From Phialocephala subalpina (Eukaryota; Ascomycota; Leotiomycetes; Helotiales; Mollisiaceae), in contig FJOG01000006.1 in the NCBI GenBank assembly GCA_900073065.1, positions 788,881 through 852,880 of the forward strand: a stretch of 64,000 nt of DNA. The letters run 5' to 3'. Made by a program: the position numbers and the translations under genes. Positions 10,163 through 62,532 of this stretch are shown piece after piece. How positions within the stretch are numbered: the stretch's first letter is position 1; each line of letters opens with the position of its first letter. The notes below the pieces were generated by a model. It searched no databases and was not told the DNA's origin. It saw only the letters and a program-made list of their open reading frames with translations.

Positions 10163-10499
10163 TTCAAGCATGCATGCAGGTGGGAGCGTTTTTTTGAGGG
10201 CCGGATTTTCATGACTTTGGAAGGGAAGCATTGTATCACTTTATGGCATTGGCAGATCACTTGCAATGAACGAGATACACGATTCCAGGTAGCACCCTAG
10301 TCAGGCCGTCAATGAAAGTCACTTAATGAAGCCCTGGGACCTTGGTTGAGCACGACTGTGACAGTTCGAATCCACTTCGGAGAAAAGTCGACGAAAAATT
10401 CTTCTCGGCTTCCTGCACAAGCGAAGAGATTTTGGCACCCAACGGCAACATGGTCGTACATATTTAAATAACAACTTTTACACCCATCAAATACCCAAA
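10163..10499. other. Spacer between DSK2 and tRNA-Lys
   Basis: Presumed DSK2 3' UTR. A TATTTAAATA box at 10461-10470 ends 30 nt before the tRNA 5' end, a good place for a TATA element of the downstream tRNA gene. A B-box-like GTTCGAATCC occurs near 10370, but no tRNA folds around it. Confidence 0.45.
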
Positions 10500-10536
10500 G
10501 CCCGGGTAGCTCAATCGGTAGAGCGTGTGGCTCTTA

Positions 10537-10548
10537 AGCTATAAGATA
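10537..10548 (+). other. Canonical tRNA intron in the anticodon loop
   Basis: Twelve nucleotides between A37 and A38 of the tRNA-Lys, the position cut by the tRNA splicing endonuclease. Internal TAAGA is complementary to the anticodon-loop TCTTA, the usual anticodon-intron pairing. The exact border is ambiguous by one or two A residues. Confidence 0.8.
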
Positions 10549-10566
10549 ACCTCAAGGTCGCGGGTT

Positions 10567-10621
10567 GTAAGTAGTTACTATCTTGACTTGAAAAAATGAA
10601 TCAAGCTAATAAATTCTGCAG
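10567..10621 (+). other. Spliceosomal-type insert 1 in the T loop of tRNA-Lys
   Basis: Fifty-five nt starting GTAAGT and ending TGCAG, with a CTAAT branch-point match at 10606-10610, 11 nt before the 3' end. Size, ends and branch point equal those of protein-gene introns in this window. It lies between T55 and C56 of the T loop and splits the polymerase III B box. Confidence 0.8.
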
Positions 10622-10630
10622 CGAGCCCCG

Positions 10631-10682
10631 GTAAGCTCAATAATCTCTGATTTGGAAGAACGTAAAACTAATAGATATTCAG
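10631..10682 (+). other. Spliceosomal-type insert 2 in the T stem of tRNA-Lys
   Basis: Fifty-two nt starting GTAAGC and ending TTCAG, with ACTAATA at 10667-10673 as branch-point match. It is inserted before the last base of the 3' T-stem strand. It lies only nine nt after the first insert, so the tRNA segment between them (CGAGCCCCG) would be a 9-nt micro-exon. Confidence 0.8.
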
Positions 10683-10691
10683 CCTCGGGCT

Positions 10692-11059
10692 CAATTCCCG
10701 AGTTCATGATGACTCGTTTACTTTTTTGCTGATTTTTTGAACTTTTGGAGTTGATGACTTTTTTCGTTTGCAGTTTTTTAAAGTGGAGCATCGAGGGGTA
10801 TCAAGCGAGAATCCCAGCTGGTGAACTTGACCTTCGCATGTACGTCCGTCACAGATTCAAAATTGCTTCAGTTGTACAGTACTCTAATCGCAATATTGAA
10901 CTTCTTATTTGTTCTACATTATTGTAGCATCTGCAGTATCCCCTCCTGCAGTGGACTTGAAGCTAAGAGCAGTATGAGATCATTGCTGACTTTCTGATCG
11001 GTCTTTGATCGACCTCCTGCCCATTGCCATCGACTTCCTTCTCCTTCTCCCCGCACTTA
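10692..11059. other. Spacer after tRNA-Lys
   Basis: Apart from the two T runs near its start, nothing gene-like is visible before the first small membrane-protein gene. Confidence 0.4.
10722..10738 (+). terminator. T-run terminators downstream of tRNA-Lys
   Basis: Two runs of six T (10722-10727 and 10733-10738) begin 31 nt after the tRNA discriminator base. T runs of this length stop RNA polymerase III. Their presence argues for, but does not prove, Pol III transcription of the interrupted gene. Confidence 0.5.
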
Positions 11060-37250: not shown

Positions 37251-40200
37251 TTACCCATCCAATAAACCACTTTCTTTCAAAGAGGAGAACAGCTCTGGCT
37301 CGAGGAACTTGGCAACGCTAACATCTTCGCTCAAACCCTTTCTCCTCCTTGTCTTCAAGACGAAATCTCTCGCTGTCGCTTGGGCACTGGCTGGCTCTAG
37401 TGGTCTCAAGATGACGTCCTTATCGAGGGGATCTCCAGGAACGATGCTCCAACGGTCGAACACCAAGCTGACCGTGGCCTGACCCTGGGTATGGATGCGA
37501 AGATCGGTTTCGAAGCCGAACGAATCGATGACCGGAATGAGACCACTGACACGATACAGAGGTGTACCGGCAATTGGACCATCTGATAAGACGTGACCTC
37601 GACGGCGGGCGAGAACAGTGTACAGTGAGGTGACCGAGTCTGCAGGTCCGGTCATGGAACATGAGAAGACGGGCTCCATCAGTCGTGGAGAAGCCATCAA
37701 GAACGACGAGTAGCAGGCGCGTCGGGAAGTGGGGATGATTTGGCCGCCTCCCCGGAAGATCGCTTCGGGAGCCAATGTAACGTCCATGATCTTGAACCTG
37801 CCATTTCGGATTGCTACAAGGATGTCAGAAAGGAACATTCGGAACGGCGGTATTACTAGCCAATGATAGGCTGTTCGAGTGCGAACTTCACCGCTCTAGA
37901 TCTTTGACAAGAAAACGCGGAATCGAGATCTATGAAAGAGGGGGTCACTCACGTTCTTCACACAACGGGCCTTCTCGAGTTGCCCAACTGAAACCCTGGC
38001 GAATCGTATCCCTGACACTCAGTAAAAGTTTCTTGTCCACCTAGTGCTGGTCAGCTTTTGAGTTCTTCCACAGTCTGAGCGGATCATATGACTTACTTCT
38101 GACGGCAAAGTATCATCTTGAAGGATGTTTGGTCCCAGTTCGTCGGGTCCAAAAGCCCAAATGCTTCTAGAAGCAAGCAGGTCCCAGCCATAGTTCTCTT
38201 CGAAGAACTTACCGATGACACGATTGGGGCTTTTGATGCTGACCTTTCCACTCTCGATGTCCTCCGCGATACCCTGGTCTAACGGCTCGGCGACCATAGT
38301 GATCTTGTTCTTCTTATTCGGCGTCTGAGCATAGCATTTGATGGCTGACGTCTCAACTACCGTCTCGCAGAATCGCGTTACTGGATCGGAGACTTTTATT
38401 TCCATCTCAGCGTACAGCCGGCGCAGGTCGTGCAGAACGCAATCCATGTAGAGCTCTCCCGTGCCGAGTATGATATGTTCCCCGGATTCTTCCACCTTCG
38501 TCGTGATTAGCGGATAGCTCTTGTTAATTTTTCTGAGGCCATCCAACATCTTCGGGAGCTCCGACGGATTGATCGGTTCGACAGCAACCTTGAATACCGA
38601 TTCTGTGAAATGTGTAATTGGCTTGAAGATGTAGGCATCTTCTCCTCCAGGTAAAACAGGAGGAACCAATGTGGCAGACTTGACAATGGAATTATCAACA
38701 CCACCCAACATCACCCAGTTGCCAGCCGGAACGCCGTCGGTGGGAATACTGTACCGTGTTTCAGCAATCCAAACGTCAGAGATGGTCGCCATGCTCATGT
38801 CTTCTTCGTCGTCGATTGAGTACCCTTCACCAAGGACTCTGACCTGGGATCCAGGTGTGGCCGTTCCGCTCATGACTCTTCCAAACGAATGGAATCCTTT
38901 GGCATCGCTAGTGTTGAACAGTTTGGTGATTTGAACCACAAGTGGCCCATCTTGATCACACTCTTTCATTGCTTGTGCAACAGCGGTATCCAGGGGCCCA
39001 GTGTAATACCTCTCGACCTTGCTGGTAGCCGCTTCGACCGGGGAAGGGATGTGCTCAACAATCATGTCGACAAAGCCATTTGATCCACCAAAGAACTGTT
39101 CGCAAACAAGTTTCAGAAGTACCTTGGCGTCCATCTTGTATTGTGACGGCTTGAGTGTGATACCAAGCGAACCAAGAGTATCCTTCAAATCCTCGGGACT
39201 TTCGCTGATGGTGTGGGAGTATAGCTTGTATATTGGCTCGAGAATAAAGTTCACGAAAGATCTCTTAGACCGCTCCTCGGTACCTTTCCGTGTGAATGAT
39301 CGTTTCTTGGGATTGTAAAAGATGTCACCCCATAACCGGCGAGCAAATTCTGGCACATTTATGCCTGGAGAGCTTTTGTTTCTGGGAGGATAGTTCTGTG
39401 CATACATCTTGGCGAAAGATTGTAGAGTGAAACACCATCCCATACTACTGCAAGCAAAGAGGACATTGCCCTTCTCTGGGCTGAGCCTTCTCTTTTCCCC
39501 TTGACCAGGTAGCGTGTTCTCAATGACAGTGTTGACCTCTTCAATGACATGCTTGAGCTTGAAATAAGCGTCAGTCGGAGGCAGCTTTAGCTCTAGGATC
39601 AATCGATCCATCTTGTTGACCACGAGCGTCATAGAGAGACCTTCCAGAACCGCGTGCTTGATTATCTGCTCTGTGTTGACCTGCACTCCTTCCACGACAT
39701 CGACAACGAGCACAACACCATCGACAAGTCGTAGTGACGAAGCGACCTCATCCACGAAGTTGACATGGCCTGGTGTGTCGAGTATGTTCAAGAGATGCGA
39801 CTTCCCCTGGGTACTTTGCAATACCAAACTCATTGGCGCCGATTTGATGGAAATCCCGCGCTCGCGTTCCAACACATGGACATCGGTATAACGTAGTTGC
39901 TCGTCTCGCTTCTTGCCAGTCTTCTTCTCCAGTCGGTCTGTAATATCGTGGGTCTCTAACACTAACATGTCCATAAGCGCGGTTTTGCCATGATGAAGAT
40001 GTCCAGCAAAGGCAACATTTCGTATTTGTTCGGGAAAGTTCATAAGATCCGTCATAAAACTTCGCTCGTAGAAGATTGGAGGCAGGTCGGCTTCCTGTAT
40101 TGTGAACTTCTTCTTCTCGACGGGTGCGATGATCGGTTGGGTCAACGGCTGAGCATCCTCCTCCTGCACCATAGTTTCGACATCTTCGCCGTATACTTGC

Positions 40201-40520
40201 TGAGCTGTGGGATAGTACTGCTTGTCTTCGTGTAATATGACCGCATTTGAAGGACCTTCGTCTAGAGAAGCAGTCAGTTCCGCAGTCTTGAGAGAGTCGC
40301 ATAACATCTTACCATCCAATTCCATCAGCTCCTGGCCTGTTGCTTCAGGCGCCTCCTCAGGGTAGTCTTCATCGTAGACGTAGGCACCCGCATCAATGCC
40401 ATGTTGGCTGTCGTCCTCAGATTCTTCAGCTTCGCCGATGAAGTTTCCGAACCTATATAATCATTAGAAAGGGTTTCCAATACAGATGGGGATTTCTTAC
40501 TCGTCATAGAGGTCATCCAT
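37251..40520 (-). CDS. SNU114: U5 snRNP GTPase Snu114 (EFTUD2)
   Basis: Five exons: 40520-40501, 40452-40313, 40261-38097, 38040-37953 and 37813-37251, giving 991 aa, the normal length. Snu114 is the EF-2-like GTPase of the U5 snRNP that controls Brr2 and spliceosome activation. The acidic N-terminus [17 protein letters not shown] is diagnostic. G1 is [13 protein letters not shown]3 [11 protein letters not shown] and G4 NKMDR. Domain II ([19 protein letters not shown]) and domains III-V follow, with [14 protein letters not shown] and [18 protein letters not shown]. The 51-nt second intron is a multiple of three and lacks a stop, so its retention would add 17 residues. Promoter lies in the 699-bp spacer shared with the thiolase gene. 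Confidence 0.97.
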
Positions 40521-62441: not shown

Positions 62442-62442
62442 T

Positions 62443-62532
62443 GGAGATGATAGGATTCGAACCCATGACTTCTTCCATATTCGAATCTTGTTAGATGCGA
62501 AGGAAGCACGCTACCAGCTGCGTCACAGCCCC
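62443..62532 (-). tRNA. tRNA-Ala(CGC) with intron
   Basis: Acceptor GGGGCTG pairs with CATCTCC at six of seven positions, including G3-T70, the alanine identity pair, with discriminator A at 62443. D stem ACGC/GCGT; anticodon stem CTTCC/GGAAG; loop TTCGCA with anticodon CGC; intron of about 18 nt after position 37 containing CGAA, able to pair with TTCG of the loop. T arm ATGGG-TTCGAAT-CCTAT with an intact B box. A TATA-like AATATTATA lies 29-37 bp upstream (62561-62569). One C-T mismatch in the acceptor stem is a mild oddity. Confidence 0.88.

Follow-up and report, generated by a model that had tools for sequence, protein, structure and literature searches.

In 1993, Rogers et al. reportedly described mRNA-type introns, which are spliceosomal, in the nuclear rRNA genes of fungi. 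Such introns would be like those described below in lying within the gene for a structural RNA, and unlike them in that the RNA is rRNA and the polymerase is Pol I. The U6 snRNA gene of fission yeast also has an mRNA-type intron (Tani and Ohshima; PMC10484740). This is a spliceosomal intron in a fungal small RNA gene transcribed by Pol III, as proposed here, and it demonstrates that transcripts of this kind are open to splicing. However, U6 is a single snRNA gene, whereas the genes considered here are tRNA genes, and in the fungus studied here the U6 and 5S rRNA matches over the cut-off are free of long inserts.

For tRNA genes, ectopic introns have been described in Cyanidioschyzon merolae (PMC4090602, PMC3978253, PMC9602550), where tRNA-Ile(UAU) has introns with bulge-helix-bulge motifs in the D, anticodon and T arms (PMC9602550). 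The nucleomorph of Guillardia theta, a reduced endosymbiont nucleus, likewise has ectopic tRNA introns, many of them without a defined bulge-helix-bulge motif (PMC3978253); the one sentence that this source gives to them does not mention spliceosomal signals. According to a 2026 review, the splicing of tRNA belongs to the spliceosome-independent kinds (PMC13149111).

The gene analysed here lies on the forward strand at positions 10500-10691 of the window, which is the whole stretch of 64,000 nt of DNA under study. The organism is Phialocephala subalpina, a root endophyte of the Helotiales. The paper on its genome gives a size of 69.7 Mb and '91 tRNA genes coding for all amino acids' (PMC5148876); the mentions of tRNA in the main text of that paper consist of this sentence and a table, and interrupted tRNA genes are not described in it. 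Four blocks of the gene join to give a 73-nt tRNA-Lys(CUU), with inserts of 12, 55 and 52 nt between them (Table 1). As in C. merolae, there are several nuclear tRNA introns outside position 37/38, including the T arm, beside one at 37/38, and introns outside 37/38 are also shared with the G. theta nucleomorph. Unlike C. merolae, where the introns are of the bulge-helix-bulge type and are assigned to the tRNA endonuclease, the central helix of that motif is here no commoner than expected by chance, and the inserts carry spliceosomal signals. An earlier note on this DNA had stated that no nuclear tRNA with spliceosomal introns was known. This agrees with a search of the open-licence literature, among whose listed matches no report of spliceosomal introns in nuclear tRNA genes was recognised; the subscription literature lies mostly outside that search, and absence is therefore unproven. 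Judged from the sequence, it is very probable that the tRNA-Lys(CUU) of P. subalpina is a working nuclear Pol III gene whose transcript is doubly processed, and that it is one of at least 14 tRNA genes with spliceosomal introns.

Table 1 Features of the tRNA-Lys(CUU) gene of the window, followed by the insert positions in the whole set of interrupted tRNA genes.
Feature	Window coordinates	Strand	Position relative to the tRNA	Basis
TATA-like element TTTAAATA	10463..10470	+	30-37 nt 5' of tRNA start	promoter scan
Exon 1a, contains A box TAGCTCAATCGG (12/12)	10500..10536	+	1-37	sequence, box scan
Anticodon-loop intron, 12 nt, ordinary tRNA-endonuclease type	10537..10548	+		4/4 pairing, anticodon side with intron
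Exon 1b	10549..10566	+	38-55	copy comparison, border scoring
Intron 1, 55 nt, GTAAGT..CTGCAG	10567..10621	+	55/56 (T loop)	border scoring
Exon 2, 9 nt	10622..10630	+	56-64	copy comparison, border scoring
Intron 2, 52 nt, GTAAGC..ATTCAG	10631..10682	+	64/65 (T stem)	border scoring
Exon 3, acceptor 3' strand, discriminator U73	10683..10691	+	65-73	ARAGORN, copy comparison
B-box-like GGCTCAATTCC, 10/11, candidate B box	10688..10698	+	across tRNA 3' end and trailer	box scan
Trailer CAATTCCCGAGTTCATGAT, 19 nt, same in all four Lys copies	10692..10710	+		copy comparison
T6 run, likely Pol III terminator	10722..10727	+	30 nt past gene	sequence scan
Lys, four genes (window gene, L031, L032, L052), two inserts each			55/56 and 64/65	
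Arg-UCU L023, one insert			6/7	
Thr-CGU L036, one insert			5/6	
Met-like L037 and L042, one insert each			6/7	
Ser-GCU L046, one insert			6/7	
Leu L048, one insert			9/10	
Gln-UUG L043, one insert			9/10	
Trp L041, one insert			variable loop	
Trp L047, two inserts			D stem, and the variable-loop place shared with L041	
Arg-CCG L045, two inserts			both in D arm	

The two T-arm inserts are as the earlier note had described them, with GT..AG ends and branch motifs, the latter being a CTAAT located 12 nt before the end of intron 1 and 11 nt before the end of intron 2. The 12-nt anticodon-loop intron that it had reported is also present. Its claim that removal of the inserts restores the tRNA stems holds for the tRNA structure, but passed over two irregularities: one of the seven acceptor-stem pairs is G-U, and the anticodon stem has a U-U mismatch at 29-41, in the middle of the stem. 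The mismatch is found in all four copies of the gene, and counts against the explanation preferred here. With all three inserts removed, ARAGORN identifies the window gene as tRNA-Lys(ctt), with the CUU-anticodon cloverleaf and conserved T loop of a nuclear tRNA-Lys(CUU). From the unspliced window it gives no tRNA, and the Rfam match to the unspliced gene is sub-threshold (24.9 bits vs 29 needed).

The borders of the inserts can be located from tRNA structure without reference to splice signals. Two deletions of 40-70 nt were floated over the T arm and scored on base pairs and T-loop consensus only. Over 144,150 two-deletion configurations, the highest score goes to two GT..AG inserts and is equalled only when intron 2 is shifted by 1 nt; the same optimum is obtained in each of the four copies. 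The inserts in the window gene are thus not a chance pattern, since the structural optimum coincides with the GT..AG pair.

The copies were found using the first 67 nt of the window gene as the query, anticodon intron included. This located four copies of tRNA-Lys(CUU), on contigs C43 (that of the window), C42, C39 and C51. A 20-base pattern, allowing up to three mismatches, matched the same four exactly, together with two further sites at three mismatches, neither of which looks by eye like a tRNA gene; the reversed control of the pattern gave 11 matches. Both T-arm inserts are found at the same places in 4/4 copies. The 73 nt of the mature tRNA and the next 19 nt are identical in all four, and the inserts are 56-74% identical between copies (shuffled baseline 51%, measured on intron 2), while the 60-nt flanks are 48-77% identical. 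This looks like purifying selection on the mature RNA, with the introns drifting freely. The earlier note had proposed looking for other copies, and for random decay of this copy in relatives. No intact (insert-free) tRNA-Lys(CUU) was found by these searches, which detect near-identical copies only, and the copies present show no random decay, their mature parts being identical and their inserts diverged.

The earlier note knew of one such gene, but the pattern is wider. There are 20 inserts in 14 genes, among 51 tRNA loci seen (Table 1). The Rfam tRNA search scored 63 of 2,196 candidates and listed 49 matches; L052 and L094 were not among them, and were added by further sequence searches. The census is therefore incomplete, and 14/51 should not be read as a genome-wide rate; the other 37 loci were checked for further inserts by eye only. 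Over the set, the intron sites fall in the acceptor stem, D arm, variable loop and T arm. The inserts are 47-60 nt long, and all 20 have the ends GT..YAG, a count that is not independent, because the final matching demanded GT..AG; it is the structure-only tests that are independent. Position +5 is G in 19/20. A CTAAY motif is found within the last 20 nt of 18 of the 20 inserts, compared to a mean of 1.45 of 20 in shuffles, with its adenosine 9-14 nt from the insert end, and the two inserts that lack it carry CTTAC instead. ARAGORN finds a tRNA in all 14 genes when spliced, the four Lys genes being returned as tRNA-??? until the anticodon intron is also removed and then as Lys(ctt). When run on the unspliced genes, it finds two of the 14, of which L023 has a wrong 5' border and L043 a wrong identity.

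For the introns on the 5' side, in seven genes, the structural optimum includes the GT..AG insert in 6/7. Five of these six optima are tied with a 1-nt shift, and that of Met L037 is tied additionally with an unrelated solution that is not GT-AG. The seventh is the Met-like L042, for which a non-GT-AG border scores highest (8.0), and this counts against the proposal. The restored acceptor stem alone is weak in five of the seven genes (P 0.085-0.415 vs shuffled upstream sequence), the others being Leu L048 (P 0.010) and Gln L043 (P 0.005). What carries weight in this case is that structure and splice signals agree.

The inserts have the features of U2-type introns, namely a GT 5' end and YAG 3' end in 20/20, with borders backed by structure alone in the four Lys copies and in six of the seven genes with a 5'-side intron, and a CTRAY branch motif near the 3' end, which both inserts of the window gene possess. 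At 47-60 nt they fall below the size of group I and group II introns. Of the known machineries, only the U2-type spliceosome fits the inserts. A comparison is available within the window, where the Snu114 gene (37254-40520, minus strand) has four coding introns of 48, 51, 56 and 139 nt, with the 5' sites GTAAGA, GTAAGA, GTAAGT and GTGAGT in that order; three of the four (48-56 nt) resemble the tRNA inserts in length and 5' site. The tRNA introns would thus seem to resemble ordinary spliceosomal ones, with tRNA genes as a new host, as far as the literature search goes. Snu114, whose protein in the window has 99% identity to one named Phialocephala subalpina, is a GTPase of the spliceosomal U5 snRNP, and its nearness to the Lys tRNA gene is probably chance.

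Several of the interrupted genes have uninterrupted paralogues. Once spliced and freed also of its 10-nt anticodon intron, Gln-UUG L043 is found verbatim within the uninterrupted L001. The spliced Ser L046 is the same as the uninterrupted L094 over its first 29 and last 41 nt, across the junction, and the two differ in the orientation of one anticodon-stem pair (C-G against G-C). The spliced Trp L041 and L047 are identical, and L041 lacks the intron that L047 has in its D stem. The intron-free Trp L021 differs from the intron-bearing Trp genes at six positions, four of which make up two compensatory pairs, 28-42 and 49-65, the second being close to the variable-loop intron. The introns of the Gln, Ser and Trp genes are therefore not indispensable. 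In the Met-like family, pair 7-66 varies between T-A, G-T and A-T and keeps its pairing, and in L037 and L042 base 7 comes directly after the intron. Two findings count against the proposal: there are unpaired stem positions in this family (two in L039, and one in L042, in the D stem), and minimum-energy folds of the unmodified spliced RNAs are cloverleaf-like for Arg-UCU only, and not for Lys or Arg-CCG.

Some side observations concern the same genes. The initiator-Met-like family (L012, L017, L037, L039, L042) is divergent, with changes in the D, T and acceptor stems that mostly keep pairing. L042 (1-601) has an initiator-Met-like body and an AAU anticodon according to ARAGORN, and two Ser-like bodies read, by eye, ACC (L038, 1-601) and ACU (L019, 1501-1581). 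These three genes with odd anticodons could be pseudogenes, recoding tRNAs or sequence errors.

It might be supposed that the interrupted genes are disrupted pseudogenes, broken by short insertions, and that the fungus relies on other copies. This would suit the uninterrupted paralogues of the Gln, Ser and Trp genes, and the Met-like L042 with its AAU anticodon and D-stem mismatch; the census is moreover partial, and more intact copies may exist. But broken genes would not be expected to keep 73 mature nucleotides identical in four Lys copies while inserts and flanks diverged, nor to show compensatory changes as in the intron-bearing Trp genes, and the inserts retain their branch and 5' signals. 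For Lys-CUU, Arg-CCG and Arg-UCU, no uninterrupted near copy was found on which the fungus could rely, and we regard disruption as very unlikely.

Two further readings were considered. One holds that the inserts are introns of the ectopic tRNA-endonuclease type, with bulge-helix-bulge motifs, and have GT and AG ends by accident; introners, on the other hand, supply splice sites on insertion, and a mobile, introner-like family could have brought its own. The former has a model in the C. merolae tRNA-Ile(UAU), with such motifs at the introns of three arms (PMC9602550). However, only the central helix was scored, and one of 4 bp is possible at 2/20 inserts, neither of them in the window gene, against 13% for random sequence and 6/8 for the anticodon-loop introns (whose borders are approximate); nor are GTRAGT and CTAAY expected of bulge-helix-bulge introns. 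The central helix being at chance level, we reject this type as extremely improbable. A mobile family finds some encouragement in one pair, intron 1 of Lys L032 and the intron of Ser L046, which has a local score of 15 against a shuffled maximum of 10 and may have a shared origin. At least four other pairs score 10.5-11. Against this, of the 158 cross-isotype pairs only those five stand out: among the top six listed, the sixth scores no higher than the maximum of 10 seen in shuffles, and no clear mobile intron family emerged from this comparison, one high pair apart. We give it next to no chance, and it would concern the origin of the introns only, the spliceosome still being required. The preferred reading is therefore of spliceosomal introns within working tRNA genes.

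Whether interrupted genes are the only source of a tRNA was considered for other isotypes. No further near copy of Arg-CCG or of Arg-UCU was found by a search that detects near-identical sequence only, so that the only genes found for these two tRNAs carry introns. A query for Lys-UUU matched only the place of L052, and one for elongator Met gave no match; since an elongator-Met tRNA must exist, the search is insensitive, and neither result proves absence. In viral contigs there was no match to the Lys exon, nor any relative of the upstream gene. The window itself holds another tRNA (62442-62532, minus strand; Rfam 48.1 bits), which has an anticodon-loop intron and no spliceosomal-type insert, and whose anticodon is by eye CGC (Ala).

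The window gene shows three marks of a type 2 Pol III gene, namely a 12/12 A box, a T6 run after the gene, and a longest internal T run of 3. A T run of at least 4 follows within 80 nt in 14/14 interrupted genes. In the 20 inserts there is no TTTT run at all (shuffle mean 3.4, P 0.027), a modest depletion, and AAAA occurs 11 times (shuffle mean 12.4). A TATA-like element is found 5' of 12/14 interrupted genes and of 25/29 other loci scanned (37/43), and tRNA genes of this fungus apparently have TATA elements in addition to A and B boxes. Elements like TTTAAATA lie 21-71 nt upstream of tRNA loci.

The internal B box of the Lys gene is split by intron 1, leaving a best in-gene match of 7-8 of 11, and GGCTCAATTCC (10/11) is present at the 3' end and trailer in 4/4 copies. 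This 3'-end element is a putative replacement for the split B box. A 3'-end B-box-like element is also found in the three Trp genes (10, 11 and 11 of 11). The Trp T-arm sequence CGTTCAAATCG scores 9/11 (L021), and in L041 and L047 the best in-gene match is 10/11, in the anticodon arm. The 3'-end match is at most 8/11 in the other eight interrupted genes and in 28/29 loci that lack spliceosomal-type introns, Trp L021 alone exceeding it. A weak internal box does not always go with a 3' box, since five of those 28 intron-free loci (L003, L007, L012, L017, L024) have a best internal match of 8/11 and yet no 3'-end box. The A box is affected in two genes. An intron of Trp L047 has TAG at its end, and the A box is thereby rebuilt as TAGCGCAACGG. 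In Arg-CCG L045 it is split by an intron with no evident substitute, the best match being in the anticodon arm, which counts against the proposal.

On the basis of these observations, we propose that RNA polymerase III transcribes the tRNA-Lys(CUU) precursor. Since the internal box is split by intron 1, it probably does so by way of the B-box-like element that spans the end of the tRNA and its trailer. The major (U2-type) spliceosome would take the two short GT-AG introns out of the T arm; the 12-nt anticodon-loop intron would fall to the tRNA splicing endonuclease and ligase, to give a mature tRNA that is presumably put to use. The suggestion in the earlier note, that this tRNA may need both the spliceosome and the tRNA endonuclease, is thus the best-supported reading, with no intact copy found and no decay among the four copies. 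The trailer offers a side observation: in the window gene and in L031, L032 and L052 it can, by eye, pair with the acceptor 3' strand (CTCGGG/CCCGAG). This pairing is a T-arm look-alike, and might compete with the acceptor stem before 3' processing.

We think it likely, with somewhat less assurance than for the Lys gene itself, that every copy found of Lys(CUU) (4/4), Arg(CCG) (1/1) and Arg(UCU) (1/1) needs the removal of spliceosomal introns, which would make the decoding of some codons spliceosome-dependent; that these make up one more class of nuclear tRNA intron; and that Pol III promoters have been re-drawn around them, by the 3'-end B box and by the rebuilt A box of Trp L047. Several tRNA genes of this root fungus would then probably need the mRNA-splicing machinery, an unexpected step in the making of tRNA. 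If true, spliceosome-dependent tRNA maturation would be new, and would link tRNA and mRNA splicing, which are treated as separate. It would also mean that small, folded Pol III transcripts can accommodate spliceosomal introns, even beside exons of only 5-10 nt, and that such genes are overlooked or wrongly read by standard finders, ARAGORN having returned nothing for 12/14 when unspliced. The presence of interrupted and uninterrupted paralogues in one genome makes the gain of tRNA introns, and possible rebuilding of the internal promoter, directly testable.

Finally, the other small RNA genes were searched. There are 23 matches to 5S rRNA over the cut-off, all spanning 120 nt, and seven to U6, spanning 103-112 nt, with no long insert in either. 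Five weaker 5S matches fall below the cut-off. A weak partial match to U6 (L064, G000:C34:684989-685035, minus strand; model positions 1-48, E 0.8) may be fortuitous, or else a fragment of a U6 gene that is interrupted.
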